From positions 1-32,517 of the forward strand of contig CALPWK020000008.1 of NCBI GenBank assembly GCA_943327245.2: DNA of 32,517 nucleotides, given 5' to 3'. The translations under genes were made by a program, and so were the position numbers. This document shows positions 8,976 to 17,502 of this stretch, one piece after another. Origin of the DNA: Comamonas sp. lk. GTDB lineage: Bacteria; Bacteroidota; Bacteroidia; Chitinophagales; Chitinophagaceae. A model generated the notes under the pieces. It did not search any database, had not been told where the DNA came from, and saw nothing but the letters and a program-made list of their open reading frames with translations. Position 1 is the stretch's first letter, and each line of letters opens with the position of its first letter.

Positions 8976-9464
8976 TTATACAATTTTTACATTTCTAGAA
9001 AAGCTTTCTTCTAAAGAAATCAAAGTTTCTGTACGTTCAATCCCTTTAATTTTTTGAAGTTCATCATGTAAAACAAAACGTAATTGCTGAATGTCCTTAC
9101 AAACAATTTCCACAAACATGCTATAATTACCTGTAGTATAATTAACACGCACTACTTGAGGAATTGCTTTTAACGCTTGAGCCACATTATCATACATAGA
9201 ACTCTTCTCCAAATAAATACCAATGAAAGCAATAATGTCATAACCCAATACTTTAAGGTCCACAGCCAAACGCTTCCCTTGCACAATGCCTAGTTCTTCC
9301 AATTTTTTAATACGGACGTGTATGGTACCACCCGACACAAAAAACTGTTTCCCTAAATCTGCGTAGGAAACCTCGGCATCCTGCATCATAGCTTGAATAA
9401 TTTGCAAATCCAGCTTATCTAAGCTTTTGTCAATGTTCAATTTAGTATTAGATTTTGGCTCCAT
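8976..9464 (-). CDS. Lrp/AsnC family transcriptional regulator
   Basis: LDKLDLQIIQAMMQDAEVSYADLGKQFFVSGGTIHVRIKKLEELGIVQG plus C-terminal AsnC ligand-binding domain. Confidence 0.93.
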   Translation of the reverse strand: MEPKSNTKLNIDKSLDKLDLQIIQAMMQDAEVSYADLGKQFFVSGGTIHVRIKKLEELGIVQGKRLAVDLKVLGYDIIAFIGIYLEKSSMYDNVAQALKAIPQVVRVNYTTGNYSMFVEIVCKDIQQLRFVLHDELQKIKGIERTETLISLEESFSRNVKIV

Positions 9465-9535: not shown

Positions 9536-9567
9536 TTTGCAACATATAGGCTAATCCTTTAGTTTTG
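9536..9567 (+). promoter_or_regulatory. Candidate Bacteroidetes-type promoter for the tRNA-like RNA
   Basis: TTTG at 9536-9539, 20-nt spacer, TAGTTTTG at 9560-9567 (consensus TANNTTTG). Confidence 0.55.
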
Positions 9568-9625
9568 ATATATCAAATGAGGGAAATACACTAAGTAAAC
9601 CCCGTCAAATGAAAGTTCTTAATAC

Positions 9626-9788
9626 TGTGGGGTGATGAAATTTTGGCAGACATGCCCCCTTGTCTCGGGGGTGAGGATCACGGGATAAATATAGCATAGA
9701 GCCGTCTAGCAATAGGCGACCAGGGTCGACCACTGAACTTTGTGCTACAACTAACTGCCTCATGGAGGTTCGACCCCTCCCCCTACAG
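9626..9788 (+). tRNA. tRNA-like RNA with GUC anticodon and about 91-nt structured variable region
   Basis: Acceptor TGTGGGG (9626-9632)/CCCTACA (9781-9787), 7 bp with one G-U; TG linker; D stem ATG/CAT with AAATTTTGGCAGA loop; anticodon stem CCCCC/GGGGG around TTGTCTC (anticodon GTC 9662-9664); variable region 9672-9762 closed by TGAGG/CCTCA; T stem GGAGG/CCTCC with TTCGACC loop; G73 candidate at 9788; CCA not encoded. All paired by eye. Confidence 0.72.
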
Positions 9789-9798
9789 CAACTATTAG

Positions 9799-9837
9799 TC
9801 CCTATTATATTGTTAATCAATGTGATAGGGATTTTTT
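9799..9837 (+). terminator. Intrinsic terminator after the tRNA-like gene
   Basis: TCCCTATTATATTG-TTAAT-CAATGTGATAGGGA followed by TTTTTT. Confidence 0.8.
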
Positions 9838-9895: not shown

Positions 9896-10939
9896 TTATT
9901 CAGTTTCAAATGCACCGGCGGATAAGTTGGTAGTAATAACTTCTCCAGCTTTAATATGCAACCATTCCCCTTTATCAATAGCCTCCTCGGGATGATTGGT
10001 AAACTTAGACGTCCAAGGTTCTAGCGCAACTGTGTAACACTTGCCCCACCATGGAAAATCTTGGGTCGCTTTTCTTTCCTGCCATAACCATAAACATTTA
10101 AATATATCAGCATCCCAGTTAACTTTAAACCCAACTTTTTGCGTGTTACTAATTATGCTATAGTAAGCATTATTAGTAGTGGTTTCAAAATTAGTTAAAT
10201 AGGAAAGATCACTGTAGGCAGGTGCTTCTGTGTCCGGAATAATACTTGCATTCAGTATATTACCTTCAGGGTCTTCTGCATTAGGCCATTCATAAATCTT
10301 ACCTTGTTTGAATCTTCTTGGAGATGATATGGTATCATGTACTTCCATTGTTTTAGCATTTGTTTCAATAGATGCACCATCGTTTAAAAAAGGAAGGCCA
10401 AATGCAATATGATGGCCCCACATAATATCTAAAGGTGTAGCACTCTCATTAGTTAATTGTTCTGTAATAAATAGATTGGCATTATTTTTTTTAATCGTTA
10501 ATGTTTTTTCAATTAATAAAGGCATTCTTAAAGGTCGTGTCCAAAATTTTACGGAAACTTCCTCAAATGTATCTTTGATGATAGCATACTTCCAAGGTAT
10601 TAAAGACACTTCTCCATGTAATCCTAAGGAAGCTCCTCGATAATTAAAAGACGGACTATTAGGCAGTATCTCTTGCCATCCACCATAATAATAATCTTCC
10701 GATTGATTCGTAGTGTCTCGCATTTGTGAAAACTCTTTTAAAGGATTGGAAATCCCTTTATCGAGTCTTAATAAAAAATCTAGGTCTAATGGTTTGTATT
10801 TAAACTCAAAAATATCAGAACCACGGTCAGCTAATATTCCAATACGTAAAAATGCATTTTCTAAATATATAACTTTCATGCCTTTGTAGGCCCAGTCGTC
10901 AGATATTGTACAATTTTGATTTTGTTTTGTTATTTGCAT
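9896..10939 (-). CDS. Galactose mutarotase-like / aldose 1-epimerase-like protein (possibly DUF4432 family)
   Basis: LENAFLRIGILADRGSDIFEFKYKP, GLHGEVSLIPW, ITEQLTNESATPLDIMWGHHIAFG pattern of mutarotase-like beta-sandwich proteins. Confidence 0.7.
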   Translation of the reverse strand: MQITKQNQNCTISDDWAYKGMKVIYLENAFLRIGILADRGSDIFEFKYKPLDLDFLLRLDKGISNPLKEFSQMRDTTNQSEDYYYGGWQEILPNSPSFNYRGASLGLHGEVSLIPWKYAIIKDTFEEVSVKFWTRPLRMPLLIEKTLTIKKNNANLFITEQLTNESATPLDIMWGHHIAFGLPFLNDGASIETNAKTMEVHDTISSPRRFKQGKIYEWPNAEDPEGNILNASIIPDTEAPAYSDLSYLTNFETTTNNAYYSIISNTQKVGFKVNWDADIFKCLWLWQERKATQDFPWWGKCYTVALEPWTSKFTNHPEEAIDKGEWLHIKAGEVITTNLSAGAFETE

Positions 10940-10952
10940 TATTTTATTTTTA

Positions 10953-12095
10953 TTAAATTATTAGCCACGCCAAGCTAACAGGTGATTTGATATTTTCAAC
11001 GATATTGAAAAAGCGAAGCGTGCCGTTATTAGGATTGATTGAAAAAATTGTAATTGTATCTGAATCTTGATGCGTTATTAAAAGCCATTTGCCAGTTGGA
11101 TCTATAATAAAATCCCTTGGAGTTGTACCCAATGTTTTATAGGTATCAATATGCTTAATAGTACCATTTACTTTATCAAAAGTATATAATCTAATAGTAT
11201 TATCACTTCTTATGGATGTATAAATATAATTCCCATTGTCCGATACCCTAATAGCTGCACCTCCATAATCACAATGTAAAGTAGATGGTTCTAACATTGG
11301 AAAAGTTCCAATAATATCATAACTATCAGCATTTTCAATGTTGTTTTTTATACCGTTATTTTTTATAATAGTCACAGACCCAGTAAGTTCATTAATAATA
11401 AACCCATGTTTGAATTTAGTATCAAAACAAATATGTCTTGGGCCGCTACCAGCTGGCAAATTGATAATTTGATGCAGTACAGCGGTTGATATACTATTTT
11501 CTTGTTGAATGGTATATACCCTTACTTCATCTAAACCTAAATCGGCTACAAGTATTTTATTTAAAGCATGGTCAAAGTAAACACAATGTGCATGGGCAGA
11601 AGATTGTCTTGTAGGATGTTGGCTATGCCCCTTATGTTGTATCGTCAATGGGTCCAATAATACCTTTTTATCCAAATTATATAAAATCACATTTCCTGTT
11701 TCATAACAGGAAACTGCTATTAATTTATTACTAATGTCATTGTTGATATAAGCTACATGACAAGGACAACCTCCCTCAATGACTTGTGAATTGATTAAAT
11801 TAAGTGTGTAGTTATTTTTATTAATACTATACGATTGTAAGCTAGGATTTTTGGAAGCTAATAATTCGGTACTAGTAAAAAGTATTGGCGCTTCTGAATT
11901 ATTTATGTATTGTAATTCTTTATTTACAATGCATAAATAACTTGGATTGATTTCTTTTTGAGTGTGTAGTAATTGTAAATTACCATTAACGGTGTTAAAC
12001 TGAAAACAATAAATACCTTCACCGTGACCTCCAAAATTGCCATCAACTATTTCGGTATAAGATCCACAATATAAAATTTGTATATTATTTTCCAC
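10953..12095 (-). CDS. Lactonase family protein, 7-bladed beta-propeller (6-phosphogluconolactonase-like)
   Basis: CGSYTE...GIYCFQFNTVNGNLQLL, SAHAHCVYFDHALNKILVADLGLDEVRVY, GSGPRHICFD, RLYTFDKVNGTIKHIDTYKTLGTTPRDFIIDPTGKWLLITHQDSDTITIFSINPNNGTL. Confidence 0.88.
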   Translation of the reverse strand: MENNIQILYCGSYTEIVDGNFGGHGEGIYCFQFNTVNGNLQLLHTQKEINPSYLCIVNKELQYINNSEAPILFTSTELLASKNPSLQSYSINKNNYTLNLINSQVIEGGCPCHVAYINNDISNKLIAVSCYETGNVILYNLDKKVLLDPLTIQHKGHSQHPTRQSSAHAHCVYFDHALNKILVADLGLDEVRVYTIQQENSISTAVLHQIINLPAGSGPRHICFDTKFKHGFIINELTGSVTIIKNNGIKNNIENADSYDIIGTFPMLEPSTLHCDYGGAAIRVSDNGNYIYTSIRSDNTIRLYTFDKVNGTIKHIDTYKTLGTTPRDFIIDPTGKWLLITHQDSDTITIFSINPNNGTLRFFNIVENIKSPVSLAWLII

Positions 12096-12096
12096 G

Positions 12097-13239
12097 TTAA
12101 GATTTTTCTATATTATAAGATACACTATAGCCTTCTTGTAAATTTTGTAATACGCGTTCAGCAGACGTATCATTTACTAAAAATGCATGAACAACTTCTC
12201 CTAACCATTGCTGAAACTTAGGCCAACCTGCGTATCTAGGTCTAACATACGCTTTAGATAAAGTAGCAAATGTATTGTTGAAAAAATTGTTAGTTAAATT
12301 ATTAGCAGCACCATCATGCCAAGCAAAAGCGTTTCCTGGCTGTCCTTGTTCATTTACGTAGATAGCTGCTTGAATATGATCACTACAAATCCAAGCAGCA
12401 TATTCGGCAGCAATTAAAGGCTCCTTACAAGTTGAAGTAATTGCAATACCTGCACCTCCTAAAACAGCATTGCTTATTTCGGGGGCATTATGAAAATGTA
12501 AAAGGTGTTTTCTAAAACCCTTTCTTGAATAATTGGTATAACAAAATGCTAGCGGGCTGTAAGCAATATCATTAAACGCTGACATATAATCATATAAAGC
12601 AATTGGATTCCATTGTAAAGCATTAGGATAAAATAGATCACGCATAGAACGCATCATATTCAAGGCCTTTAACCCAATTTCAGGGTCAACTAATAATTTA
12701 CTATTTTCTGTGATAGGGGAGCCAAGTTGAGCGGTAATACTTAAAAATGTACATAAACAATCGGTAGGGCAAAGTGCCATTCCTGTATATAAATTTTTTT
12801 GTTTTAATACAGCCGTTAATTCAAAAACCTCCTTCCAATTATTAGGTAGGGGTAAATCACCTAATAAATCGGGTCTAACACTTGCACATTGCATGGCTGC
12901 ATCAATAGGTAATGCCCATTGCTTATTGTGATAATGGTAACTTTCAAAGCTAGGGCCTGCGGATGCACTTTTAAATAAATTCAACTTTGTATCTGTTAGG
13001 ATATTATTTAATGGCAACAAGCATTTTGTAGCTTCTGCTACTCCTACATGCGGATGATCCATTATAATTAAATCAAATTGTCTAGAAAGCGATTCTAGGG
13101 ACTCGTCTCCAAAATTAGTGAGTGATCTTTTTTGCCATGAAACCTGTATCCCTTTCTCTTTTTCATAAAGAGCAGAAGCAGCTATAAGTGGCTCATACCC
13201 TCTTGCATGATCCCAAGTAATTCCCTTTAATTTCATCAT
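12097..13239 (-). CDS. Extracellular solute-binding-like protein (sugar ABC SBP fold) without apparent signal peptide
   Basis: KGIQVSWQKRSL, FDLIIMDHPHVGVAEATKCLLPLNNIL, WALPIDAAMQCASVRPDLLGD, AGIAITSTCKEPLIAAEYAAWICS; N-terminus MMKLKGITWDHARGYEP lacks a hydrophobic core. Confidence 0.7.
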   Translation of the reverse strand: MMKLKGITWDHARGYEPLIAASALYEKEKGIQVSWQKRSLTNFGDESLESLSRQFDLIIMDHPHVGVAEATKCLLPLNNILTDTKLNLFKSASAGPSFESYHYHNKQWALPIDAAMQCASVRPDLLGDLPLPNNWKEVFELTAVLKQKNLYTGMALCPTDCLCTFLSITAQLGSPITENSKLLVDPEIGLKALNMMRSMRDLFYPNALQWNPIALYDYMSAFNDIAYSPLAFCYTNYSRKGFRKHLLHFHNAPEISNAVLGGAGIAITSTCKEPLIAAEYAAWICSDHIQAAIYVNEQGQPGNAFAWHDGAANNLTNNFFNNTFATLSKAYVRPRYAGWPKFQQWLGEVVHAFLVNDTSAERVLQNLQEGYSVSYNIEKS

Positions 13240-13263
13240 TACTAATGGCTTTGCTTATTAGGA

Positions 13264-14052
13264 TTATTTCTTTTCCTGATTTTTATTAATACTATTATTA
13301 TAGAAAGCTTGTATTTTTTCTTGACCCTCTAAAGAATTATAAAATTTTCCTAAAGCAAATGCCTCTTGCTGTTGCAATTCAGGCGTAATACCATTAATGG
13401 CTTCCTGTGTTAATTGTTTAATAGTTTGCAACCTGTCAGGTAATTGATTAGCAATATTACTTGCAAATTCAGTGACGTTCTCTTTGAAACTTTCTCTAGG
13501 ATAAATATAATTGACAACACCACGCACTTGCATTTCTTCTGCTAAAACAGTGCGACCAGTCATAACAATTTCATTAGCTAAATTAACCCCAATTTTTTGG
13601 GCTAATCTTAAAGTGCCGCCACCGCCAGGAATCAAATTTAATAATATTTCAGGCAGACCCATTTTAGCACCTGCTGATGCTAAAATCATATCACATGCTA
13701 AAGCAATTTCAAACCCGCCCCCAAATGCATAGCCATTAATAGCAGCTATAATAACTTTTGAATTTTTTTCAATTGCAGTATAGAGTGAATGTCCTTTAAT
13801 TTGGAATGCATCAAATTCAGCTTGCGTTTGTTTTGCATATTCTTTAATATCTGCTCCTGCCATAAAGGCTTTGCCTGCACCAGTGATTACGACCACACCA
13901 ACTTCTTTACTATCTGCCTTATGCACCATATCTAATACCTGTATAATTTCGTCCATCATTATGGCATTCATTGCATTTAAATGTGCTTCCCTATTAAATG
14001 TAATCCAGGCAATTCTATTTTTTATTTCGAAAAGGATATGTCGATATTCCAT
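13264..14052 (-). CDS. Enoyl-CoA hydratase/isomerase family protein
   Basis: WITFNREAHLNAMN, GKAFMAGADIKEY, AINGYAFGGGFEIALACDMILAS, GLPEILLNLIPGGGGTLRL; both crotonase Glu positions appear retained. Confidence 0.93.
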   Translation of the reverse strand: MEYRHILFEIKNRIAWITFNREAHLNAMNAIMMDEIIQVLDMVHKADSKEVGVVVITGAGKAFMAGADIKEYAKQTQAEFDAFQIKGHSLYTAIEKNSKVIIAAINGYAFGGGFEIALACDMILASAGAKMGLPEILLNLIPGGGGTLRLAQKIGVNLANEIVMTGRTVLAEEMQVRGVVNYIYPRESFKENVTEFASNIANQLPDRLQTIKQLTQEAINGITPELQQQEAFALGKFYNSLEGQEKIQAFYNNSINKNQEKK

Positions 14053-14087
14053 TATATATTAATTTTTTAACCTGATTTTAAAAATAA

Positions 14088-15296
14088 TTATGCGTTCAAT
14101 TTTTCTACTGAAATGATTTTATCATTTAATAAATTTTCAATCATAGCTTCATCATAACCTAATTCTTTTAAAATTTCAGGACCATGTTCTCCAATCATAG
14201 GCGAGGGTCTTGTAATCGCACCAGGTGTTTCACTCATTGTAAATGGAATATTGGTAACAGAAAGATTACCAGCTTTAGGATGTTTGATGTTAACAAATGT
14301 ATTGTTATGAATTACCTGTGGATCTTGTGCCACTTCAGATTGATTATTAACTTGCGCTACCCATAAATCATATCCCAACATAATAGTAAGCCATTCCTGT
14401 GTCGTTTTAGAAATAGTAACCGCCTGGATACGGTAATAGATTTCATCTCTTTTATCAAATAAAATTTGACTATCATTATATACTAATAAACTAGGATCAC
14501 CCAATGCTTCAACTAGTGTGGCAAAAGGATTCATAGCAATGGCCAAATAACCATCTTTAGTTTTATATGTACCAAATGGGGCGGGATTACCAGGATGGCC
14601 AATGCCAGATTCAGGGCGTTCAAATTGTACCCCCAAATTCTGAATCGTAAAATAATCTTGCATTTGAAAAGCAATAGCAGAAGAAAGTAAATTAGTTTGG
14701 ATTTCTTGACCAATGCCCGTTTTTTCTCTAAAATAAAGTGCGGCTAATATTGCATAAACACAATTAAAGGCATTGACTTGATCACAAAGTGCAGTACCTA
14801 AAGCAACTGGGCCATCCGATTTTTTTCCACTTGTCATTATTGCACCACTAACGCTTTGCACCAGTAAATCCTGTCCAGGTCTTTTTAAATAAGGTCCATC
14901 ATTACCCCAACCTGAAGCAGAACAATAAATAATTTTAGGATTAATTTTCTTTAAAGCTTCGTAGCCATACCCTAATCTTTCCATCACCCCGGGTCTGAAA
15001 TTTTCAACTACAATATCAGCTTGTTCAATTAATTGTAATATTATTTTTTTACCGGCTTCTTTTTTCATGTCTATAGCAATAGAACGTTTGTTTCTATTCC
15101 AAGCCATAAAACAGGGTGATTCATTTCCTGCAATCCATTTATTAAAAAATGTCATGCCCCTATATATATCGCCCGTGCCATACCTTTCAATTTTGATAAC
15201 GTCGGCGCCTAAGTCACCAAGCATTTGAGTCGCATAAGGACCTTGAAGAAGTTGTGAAAAATCGATAACTTTTAAACCTGCTAAAGCCTGTTTCAT
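14088..15296 (-). CDS. CaiB/BaiF (family III) CoA-transferase
   Basis: LAGLKVIDFSQLLQGPYATQMLGDLGADVIKIERYGTGD, WNRNKRSIAIDMKKEAGK, NFRPGVMERLGYGYEAL, GTALCDQVNAFNCVYAILAALYFREKTGIGQEI. Confidence 0.95.
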   Translation of the reverse strand: MKQALAGLKVIDFSQLLQGPYATQMLGDLGADVIKIERYGTGDIYRGMTFFNKWIAGNESPCFMAWNRNKRSIAIDMKKEAGKKIILQLIEQADIVVENFRPGVMERLGYGYEALKKINPKIIYCSASGWGNDGPYLKRPGQDLLVQSVSGAIMTSGKKSDGPVALGTALCDQVNAFNCVYAILAALYFREKTGIGQEIQTNLLSSAIAFQMQDYFTIQNLGVQFERPESGIGHPGNPAPFGTYKTKDGYLAIAMNPFATLVEALGDPSLLVYNDSQILFDKRDEIYYRIQAVTISKTTQEWLTIMLGYDLWVAQVNNQSEVAQDPQVIHNNTFVNIKHPKAGNLSVTNIPFTMSETPGAITRPSPMIGEHGPEILKELGYDEAMIENLLNDKIISVEKLNA

Positions 15297-15319
15297 ATTA
15301 TTTGTAATTTTTAAAATAG

Positions 15320-16090
15320 TTATTCAGTATATCTAGGGAGTGTACACAATCCACCATCCACTTTTATGTCCTCCCCTGTAATAAAACCAGCTTCGTCAGA
15401 CGCTAGAAAAACAGCTGTCATTGCAACTTCCATGGGAGAACCTAGTCTTTGCATCGCATGCTGAGCAGCACTTTTTTCTAAGAAACCAGGTCCTTCCACT
15501 TCACTTCTTTTTGCATTCATGGGCGTTAAGATGGCACCTGGAGAAATACTATTAAATCGAACATTATATTCACCAAATTGTCCAGCTAATTGATTGGTCA
15601 TAGACAACATGGCCCCCTTTGCACCTGCATAGGCTGTCCAATTATGCCAACTTCTAAATGCTTGTGTTGAAGAAATATTAATTATACTACCCGACTTTTG
15701 CTTAACCATAAATGGAAGTGTCTCTTTAATAGTCCTGTAAATACTTTTTAAATTAATGTTCATCAAATTGTCCCAATCATCTTCTGGCATGTCCATAATA
15801 TTACCCCCAATAGCCACGGCTGCATTATTAACAAGAATATCAATTTTGCCAAATTCAGCAATAGTAGTTTGAATTAATTTTTTAACATCATCAGTATTGC
15901 CTACGTCACATTTTACACCCCGTGTTACTGCTCCATTAATAGCAAGCAGTTTAGTAACTTCTGAAACTTTTTGTTCCTCAATGTCAGCTAAAATAACAAT
16001 TGCGCCTTCTTGTACAAAAGCGGTAGCTATAGAAAGTCCAATACCATTAGCTGCACCAGTAACAATGGCTACTTTGTTTTTCAATCTCAT
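15320..16090 (-). CDS. SDR family NAD(P)-dependent oxidoreductase
   Basis: KVAIVTGAANGIGLSIA, DILVNNAA, SGSIINISS, YAGAKGA (YxxxK), SPGAI, FITGEDIKVDGG. Confidence 0.95.
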   Translation of the reverse strand: MRLKNKVAIVTGAANGIGLSIATAFVQEGAIVILADIEEQKVSEVTKLLAINGAVTRGVKCDVGNTDDVKKLIQTTIAEFGKIDILVNNAAVAIGGNIMDMPEDDWDNLMNINLKSIYRTIKETLPFMVKQKSGSIINISSTQAFRSWHNWTAYAGAKGAMLSMTNQLAGQFGEYNVRFNSISPGAILTPMNAKRSEVEGPGFLEKSAAQHAMQRLGSPMEVAMTAVFLASDEAGFITGEDIKVDGGLCTLPRYTE

Positions 16091-16095
16091 GCAAT

Positions 16096-17502
16096 TTATT
16101 TTTTAGCGTTTTTAGTAATCCAATATTGTTCAATTTCTTCAAGGCTCTTGCCTTTTGTTTCCGGAATAATTTTAAAAGATAAATATAAGGCAGGAGTTGT
16201 AACTAATGCAAATAGCCAAAAAGTACCAGCAGGATGTAATTTTTCTAAAAGTAGTGGGGTTAGTTGCGCCACTAAGGCAGTGCCTATCCATAAGGCGAAA
16301 GTTGCTAAAGCCATGGCTTGTCCTCTAATTTTTGCAGGAAATATTTCTGATAATAATACCCAAATAACTGGACCATAAGAAAATGCAAAACAAGCAATAA
16401 ACAATAAAATAAAAGTGAGTAATAAATAAGTGTTATTAATATTAAAATAAAATAATGCCCCTATAATAACTAATGAAGATAAAATTCCAATGACACCTAT
16501 AATTAATAATGGTCTTCTCCCTATTTGATCAATTTTCCAGATAGCAATTAGGGTAAATAAAACATTAACTAATCCAATGACAACCTGACTGCCTAGGGCG
16601 TCTGCAATGGGCAGTCCTGCTGATTCTAAAATGCCCGGTCCATAATAAATGATAGCATTAATGCCACTAATTTGAGTTAAAAAAGAGAGTGAAATACCAA
16701 TTAACATAGGTAGTCTAAAACTACCTTTAAATACTAAACTAAATCCCCCAGCTTCTCTCGATAAATTTGATTTAATATCTGTAATTTCTTTTGAAGCTTC
16801 TTCTATAGAAACAATTTTTTGTAAAATGGTCAACGCTTCCGATTCTTTATTTTGTATAGTAAGCCATCTAGGACTTTCGGGAACTATTTGCAAGAGTATT
16901 AAAAACAATATGGCAGGAATAGCAGAAGTGCCTAGCATAATTCTCCAAACTTCTGAAACCATTATCTGGTATAGTTTTCCAGTGGTATGCATAAAGAATT
17001 CAGAATGCGATAATTTAAGTAAGTATGCATTACTAAAATAGGAGCAGAGAATTCCGATGGTAATTGCAAACTGATAAAGCGCTACTAGACGGCCTCTTTT
17101 ATGTGCAGGGGAAAGTTCTGAAATATATAAAGGAGAAACCATAGAAGCTACACCAATACCAAGTCCGCCAATGAAACGGAAAATTACTAAATCAGTAAAC
17201 CCAATTGCAAAAGTGCATCCAACTGCAGAAACACCGAAAAATAATGCAGATAAAATTAGTACTTTCTTACGTCCATATTTATCACTTAAAATACCTGCCA
17301 TGGCAACACCGGTAATACAACCAACTAATGCAGAACTTACATACCAACCGGTAGACACTGCATCTAAACTAAATTGAGAAGCTACAAAATTGATGGTTCC
17401 AGAAATAACGGCTGTATCATATCCAAATAAAAAACCACCTAAAGAGGCAATGATAGCTAACGTATTAACATAGTTTTTTTTAGACTGGTCTGAAACTGTC
17501 AT
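16096..17502 (-). CDS. MFS sugar porter family transporter
   Basis: GGFLFGYDTAVISGTINF, SDKYGRKKVL, IGGLGIGVASMVSPLYISELSPAHKRGRLVALYQFAITIGI, VPESPRWL, IDQIGRRPLL, ETKGKSLEEIE. Confidence 0.95.
   Translation of the reverse strand: MTVSDQSKKNYVNTLAIIASLGGFLFGYDTAVISGTINFVASQFSLDAVSTGWYVSSALVGCITGVAMAGILSDKYGRKKVLILSALFFGVSAVGCTFAIGFTDLVIFRFIGGLGIGVASMVSPLYISELSPAHKRGRLVALYQFAITIGILCSYFSNAYLLKLSHSEFFMHTTGKLYQIMVSEVWRIMLGTSAIPAILFLILLQIVPESPRWLTIQNKESEALTILQKIVSIEEASKEITDIKSNLSREAGGFSLVFKGSFRLPMLIGISLSFLTQISGINAIIYYGPGILESAGLPIADALGSQVVIGLVNVLFTLIAIWKIDQIGRRPLLIIGVIGILSSLVIIGALFYFNINNTYLLLTFILLFIACFAFSYGPVIWVLLSEIFPAKIRGQAMALATFALWIGTALVAQLTPLLLEKLHPAGTFWLFALVTTPALYLSFKIIPETKGKSLEEIEQYWITKNAKK

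Follow-up and report, generated by a model that had tools for sequence, protein, structure and literature searches.

The tRNA-like RNA at the window locus

The window, which is the whole stretch of 32,517 nt that was analyzed, contains a tRNA-like RNA and, 160 bp away in the divergent orientation, a gene for an AsnC-type regulator of the Lrp family (Table 1). The RNA folds into a cloverleaf with complete pairing in all its stems, which have 3 bp in the D arm, 5 bp in the anticodon arm, 5 bp in the T arm, and 7 bp in the acceptor, the last extended by a C-1:G73 pair. The encoded C74 is ordinary in this genome, as the listed tRNAs of the same genome also have a C after the discriminator. A Sec-like acceptor of 8 bp was considered and dropped, because some homologs have A or G at position -1 and C74 is normal in the window genome. 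When the variable region was folded alone, its minimum free energy corresponded to a z-score of -3.0.

The candidate promoter of the RNA was read from the sequence, and we take its underlying consensus to be of the Bacteroidota type; TAnnTTTG-like sites recur upstream of homologs of the RNA. A recurring GTTCTT element (9615-9621 in the window) precedes the RNA by about 10-25 nt, and it is present somewhere in 94 of 263 homolog upstream regions. Downstream of the RNA, a run of genes on the opposite strand (9896-17502) encodes a DUF4432 protein, a lactonase, a solute-binding protein, an enoyl-CoA hydratase, a CoA transferase III, an SDR protein, and a sugar transporter, and it has the appearance of a catabolic cluster that is not connected with the RNA.

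Table 1. Positions of the tRNA-like RNA, its parts, and its flanking features in the window
Feature	Position	Strand	Remark
AsnC-type Lrp-family regulator	8976-9464	-	Divergent from the RNA; assigned by Pfam
Candidate promoter, Bacteroidota type (assumed)	9536-9567	+	TTTG (9536-9539), 20 nt, TAGTTTTG (9560-9567)
tRNA-like RNA, C-1 to C74	9625-9789	+	Match to covariance model R1, 111.7 bits; every arm paired; C-1 is 9625, U1 9626, G73 9788, C74 9789
Acceptor, 5' strand	9625-9632	+	CUGUGGGG (C-1, then U1 G2 U3 G4 G5 G6 G7)
D arm	9635-9653	+	AUG/CAU; G18 G19 C20 A21; no nucleotide 20a
Anticodon arm	9655-9671	+	CCCCC-UUGUCUC-GGGGG; loop UUGUCUC 9660-9666
Anticodon GUC	9662-9664		Position 37 is U (9665); C38 at 9666
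Variable region, 92 nt	9672-9763	+	V stem UGAGG/CCUCA at the base
Variable region, lower helix	9681-9683 with 9755-9757		CGG/CUG
Variable region, internal loop	9684-9689 facing 9751-9754		GAUAAA facing CUAA
Variable region, tip			Long helix and two hairpins
T arm	9764-9780	+	GGAGG-UUCGACC-CCUCC
Acceptor, 3' strand	9781-9789	+	CCCUACA, discriminator G73, encoded C74; no encoded CCA
Intrinsic terminator	9797-9837	+	16-bp stem (within 9797-9833), then U tract

Conservation and covariation of the RNA in Bacteroidota

Homologs were searched for with BLAST, and then with the covariance model R1, which was built from 16 core sequences. They were found throughout the genus, the order, and the class, as well as in one family elsewhere in the phylum, and when the class was sampled evenly, R1 gave matches at E ≤ 1e-12 in 74 of 396 genomes. 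The tally of the order search (252 of 299) was left out because ordinary class-II tRNAs with weak E-values are counted in it, as were the matches of 85-87 nt that were obtained outside the class with E-values of 1e-11 to 1e-12. Where R1 matches had odd 3' ends, the RNAs turned out to be complete and to have longer arms. In named genomes, a pattern scan gave matches in Chitinophaga, Segetibacter, Niabella, Flavihumibacter, Cyclobacterium, Belliella, Marivirga, Neolewinella, Portibacter, and others. Judged by its AsnC and its variable arm, the window probably comes from the Chitinophagaceae.

Among the 16 core sequences, the 28 modeled pairs formed in 100% of cells, and the covariation score was 0.368, whereas shuffles scored 0.196 and slid registers no more than 0.104. 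The larger alignment of 127 distinct rows was fitted to the model, and it showed pairing in 98.6% of cells, changes on both sides in 21 of the 28 pairs, and a covariation score of 0.344 (shuffles, 0.173; slid registers, 0.100 or less); an alignment made with MAFFT (A2) gave the same picture. Every helix covaries, including helices 4 and 5 of the variable arm. The structure of the RNA is not a product of chance. The variable arm is not a single helix; its parts are a V stem of the Leu type, another covarying helix of 3 bp, an internal loop formed by GAYAAA and CUAA, and a tip that branches. Its core is common to the family while the tip varies, and the length of the variable region ranges from 38 to about 170 nt. 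The GAYAAA-like strand was present in 84 of 97 homologs and the strict CUAA strand in 86 of 97, and together they resemble the UAA/GAN internal loop in sequence.

Several members of the family have unusual forms. Variable arms of up to about 170 nt were seen in Chitinophagaceae-type genomes (L148, L179, L253, L256, and L170, the last one with an insertion in the D loop). Tandem arrays of at least three copies of the RNA were found at loci L107, L106, L100, L113, L172, and L213, and in some of these arrays the variable arms differ. In genome G035, a copy at L041:6400-6517 has the 5' GAYAAA strand deleted, and this genome keeps AsnC and GatB.

An initial annotation, made from the window alone, had described a tRNA-like RNA with four paired arms, a GUC anticodon, and a giant variable region of about 91 nt. 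The sequence and the covariation confirm the arms and the anticodon, and the length given for the variable region is close to the one found here. The same annotation had named a lack of homologs with compensatory changes and a match to an existing Rfam family as grounds against its reading. Such changes were seen in most pairs, as described above, and an Rfam search, at the gathering threshold and at E ≤ 5, returned no family matching the RNA. ARAGORN, run on the window, did not call the RNA. The suggestion that the RNA could be a tmRNA-like derivative was rejected, as neither Rfam nor ARAGORN gave a tmRNA match. A search of the open-access literature yielded no account of this RNA. The RNA represents a previously undescribed conserved family present in many Bacteroidota.

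Identity elements and decoding features

The nucleotides expected to determine charging and decoding were counted in 97 distinct homologs found without the pattern scan. U35, C36, C38, G73, C74, and the pairs U1:A72 and G2:C71 were each invariant (97/97), and G34 was present in 95 of 97. Nucleotide 20a was absent and the D-loop GG was followed by YA in every sequence. Thus, the set of AspRS substrate elements G34, U35, C36, C38, and G73 is present, as are both features of a GatCAB substrate, U1:A72 and the absence of U20a (97/97). The exception is position 10, which was A in 85 homologs and G in nine, while G10 is listed among bacterial Asp identity elements (PMC9976931). Position 33 was U in 75 homologs, and the 23% with another nucleotide comprised 12 with G and 10 with C; position 37 was U in 92, C in three, G in two, and never A. 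By contrast, of 60 canonical tRNAs from the same group of bacteria, all had U33 and 59 had a purine at position 37.

An ordinary tRNA-Asp that decodes, or a precursor that would lose its variable region to yield one, could account for the complete cloverleaf, the GUC anticodon, and the canonical T loop. This explanation is nevertheless highly improbable, as U33 is not kept, A37 is lost, and the variable arm has covarying helices of its own. Moreover, of 10 genomes searched, all but the draft window genome had the canonical tRNA-Asp as a separate gene. In relatives the canonical tRNA-Asp starts with GG and has the anticodon loop CUGUCAC; of its features, which include U33 with A37 and a class-I body with G1:C72 and U20a, the RNA has the GUC anticodon but neither a conserved U33 nor A37, and its body is of class II with U1:A72 and no nucleotide 20a. 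It also differs from the tRNA-Asn (GUU) of known tRNA-dependent asparagine synthesis, as its anticodon is GUC and decoding features have been lost.

The body of the RNA and the geometry at the base of its variable arm are of the tRNA-Leu type, and the nearest ordinary tRNA is tRNA-Leu(GAG). The RNA could be thought of as a seryl or leucyl acceptor with an irrelevant anticodon, that is, a class-II tRNA charged either by SerRS, given its long variable arm and G73, or by LeuRS, given the Leu-type geometry. We regard this as very doubtful. SerRS and LeuRS do not need the anticodon, and yet U35, C36, and C38 never vary and G34 hardly does; moreover, LeuRS needs A73, and the variable arm has a Leu-like and not a Ser-like geometry at its base. 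As judged from its nucleotides, the RNA is a combination of AspRS identity and GatCAB signals on a body of the tRNA-Leu type that appears unsuited to decoding.

These data bear on the other parts of the initial annotation. Its class-II, tRNA(Leu)-like body agrees with the variable-arm geometry and the nearest tRNA, and the AspRS identity elements that it saw in the anticodon and the discriminator G are conserved throughout the family. The pyrimidine at position 37, which it had called atypical, is a family trait. Of the conserved features that it listed, the D-loop GG was found in all 97 homologs, while U33 did not hold, with C33 or G33 in 22. Of the roles that it had suggested, the one of a dedicated aminoacyl donor is supported. 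Its overall reading as a non-canonical tRNA derivative stands apart from the tmRNA link, and the U1:A72 signal, the AsnC gene, and the connection to GatCAB and asparagine are additions to it.

Two sequences of one genus (L123:1501-1619 and L130:1501-1612) have the anticodon UUC (Glu) in place of GUC, while U1:A72, G73, and the adjoining AsnC gene are kept. It is possible that they represent a natural switch to Glu-to-Gln conversion, which by the same logic would make glutamine, or they may be decaying copies.

The AsnC gene as a neighbor of the RNA

In NCBIfam, the regulator encoded next to the RNA scored 160 bits against AsnC and 63 bits against the next model; as the AsnC cut-off of 227 was not reached, AsnC is its nearest relative and not a certified assignment. 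Its best match in the PDB was E. coli AsnC (2cg4), and it is 43% identical to E. coli AsnC. A gene for AsnC was divergent from the RNA and immediately upstream of it in 124 of the 176 loci with enough flanking sequence, while a search for other conserved neighbors around the RNA loci found none that recurred widely. In five RNA-containing genomes of family f19 (Saprospiraceae-type), AsnC was present and not adjacent to the RNA. AsnC was found in 21 of 21 genomes with the RNA versus four of 26 without it, and one of those four is a contig-end case. No RNA was detected at the AsnC loci L315, L320, and L322 when they were searched with filters off. An AsnC orthologue without a detectable RNA was seen in genomes G300, G066, and G334, of which G300 has an E. 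coli-type AsnB and no GatB. The same layout is seen in E. coli, where asnC is divergent from asnA, and E. coli AsnC activates asnA in a manner damped by asparagine (PMC8707732).

Co-occurrence of the RNA with GatB and asparagine genes

The presence of GatCAB was scored by GatB, and genomes were called RNA-negative after a limited scoring of candidates. All 46 genomes with the RNA had GatB, versus 12 of 34 without it (Fisher's P = 2e-11, ignoring relatedness), and within family f1 alone the respective values were 23 of 23 and two of 13. The losses recur in several genera; in the window genus, three genomes (G001, G014, G029) are without the RNA, AsnC, and GatB together. An E. coli-type AsnB, recognized by a split TIGR01536 match calibrated on E. 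coli AsnB, was found in none of the 46 genomes with the RNA versus nine of the 34 without it. No AsnB was seen in ten RNA-containing genomes of the window genus, while many RNA-containing genomes outside this genus have AsnB homologs of another type, 600-680 aa long. We take these longer homologs to be of the EPS-cluster type, and they might make asparagine. In the complete RNA-containing genome G017, of which 61% was read, GlnRS and one AspRS were present, and GatCAB is thus not needed there for Gln-tRNA; motifs of AsnA and AsnRS were not found in this 61%, which cannot show their absence. Bacteroidetes have been counted among the bacteria that have AsnRS, GlnRS, and GatCAB but no asparagine synthetase, and for which a non-discriminating AspRS was supposed (PMC4206432).

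The genomic associations also bear on two other roles. The RNA could be a regulatory mimic of tRNA that AspRS and GatCAB charge or simply bind, and that reports the aspartate and asparagine status or titrates these enzymes, with no net asparagine made and with the large variable arm as the effector domain. The size and structure of this arm with its conserved internal loop, the divergence from AsnC, and the tandem multi-copy arrays would all fit such a role. We nonetheless consider it unlikely, as it leaves the absence of E. coli-type AsnB in RNA-containing genomes unexplained, and apart from AsnC no conserved target gene was found near the RNA. It is still less probable that the RNA is an aspartyl donor that is not amidated, with Asp-RNA feeding a modification of lipids, the cell wall, or peptides. 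A model for it is the non-translating tRNA-Gly that serves staphylococcal peptidoglycan, and the AspRS identity set and the non-decoding loop are what it would lead one to expect. However, it does not explain the invariant U1:A72, the missing nucleotide 20a, or the co-occurrence with GatB, and no transferase gene recurs beside the RNA.

A proposed carrier for asparagine synthesis

The explanation that we favor, and consider probable, is that the RNA is a dedicated non-decoding carrier under the control of AsnC, which would be charged with aspartate and amidated by GatCAB for RNA-dependent synthesis of asparagine. According to this proposal, the RNA would have a promoter of its own, controlled by the divergently encoded AsnC, and its transcript would then be trimmed and supplied with CCA as other cellular tRNAs are. 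AspRS would load aspartate by recognizing G34-U35-C36, C38, G73, and possibly G2:C71. GatCAB would then convert Asp-RNA to Asn-RNA, and it would be expected to accept the RNA because of U1:A72 and the missing nucleotide 20a, which distinguish it from tRNA-Asp. An Asn-RNA with the GUC anticodon would place asparagine at Asp codons, and therefore a safe carrier would need to lose U33 and the purine at position 37. The loop with non-U33 and a pyrimidine at position 37, along with the large variable arm, would bar Asn-RNA from Asp codons, so that the asparagine could leave the RNA, by release or by transfer, and be used by the cell. The broader proposition, that many Bacteroidota make asparagine on a dedicated noncoding RNA that stands in for asparagine synthetase and never decodes, has in our view slightly less than an even chance of being correct. 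The data show the sequence and fold of the RNA, its covariation, its combination of identity elements, the neighboring AsnC gene, and the co-occurrence with AsnC and GatB, while the regulation and all biochemical steps are inferred, most of all the way in which asparagine would leave the RNA. The free-asparagine end point is for this reason less certain than the carrier.

Several observations count against the carrier. The E. coli AspRS element G10 is replaced by A10 in most homologs, GatB is kept in 12 genomes without the RNA, G066 and G334 have both AsnC and GatB with no RNA detected, many RNA-containing genomes have the longer AsnB homologs, and the two sequences L123 and L130 have a UUC anticodon.

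Comparison with known systems

In the known tRNA-dependent synthesis of asparagine, Asp-tRNA-Asn is amidated by GatCAB in Deinococcus, Thermus, and Bdellovibrio (PMC4206432). The system described here is similar in having a U1:A72 RNA, GatCAB in the genome, and no E. coli-type AsnB seen in RNA-containing genomes, and the RNA would likewise be loaded with aspartate. It is different in that the known route uses a real tRNA-Asn (GUU), a non-discriminating AspRS, and a product that decodes, while this RNA has GUC and looks unable to decode. The locus also resembles the E. coli asnC-asnA locus, as AsnC is divergent from the element expected to be under its control, although this element is an asparagine synthetase gene, asnA, in E. 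coli and a structured RNA here.

Among unusual tRNAs, the Bacillus cereus pseudo-tRNA tRNA-Other is also a tRNA-like RNA acting outside translation (PMC3399842). It is a poorly charged RNA with a Trp anticodon that occurs next to a genomic island in some Bacilli, and it is not known to have a structured giant variable arm. The allo-tRNAs, with 8/4 or 9/3 acceptor branches (PMC7609411), are unusual class-II tRNAs as well, some of them with GUC, but they are serine-type and have other acceptor and T-stem lengths. The RNA described here has instead a T stem of 5 bp and an acceptor of 7 bp plus the -1:73 pair, as well as a far larger variable arm. The tRNA-Leu(GAG) of the same bacteria is the best ordinary tRNA match of the model and shares the D loop and the geometry at the variable-arm base, while the RNA differs from it in the anticodon loop, the discriminator, the first pair, and the variable arm.

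The RNA family adds a conserved class that is invisible to the standard annotation tools tried. If the carrier explanation is true, an amino acid of primary metabolism would be made outside translation on a purpose-built RNA carrier, whose anticodon would be a charging signal and not a decoding one. It would also provide a concrete answer to the published puzzle of Bacteroidetes that have AsnRS, GlnRS, and GatCAB and no asparagine synthetase, and would remove the need for the non-discriminating AspRS supposed for them (PMC4206432).
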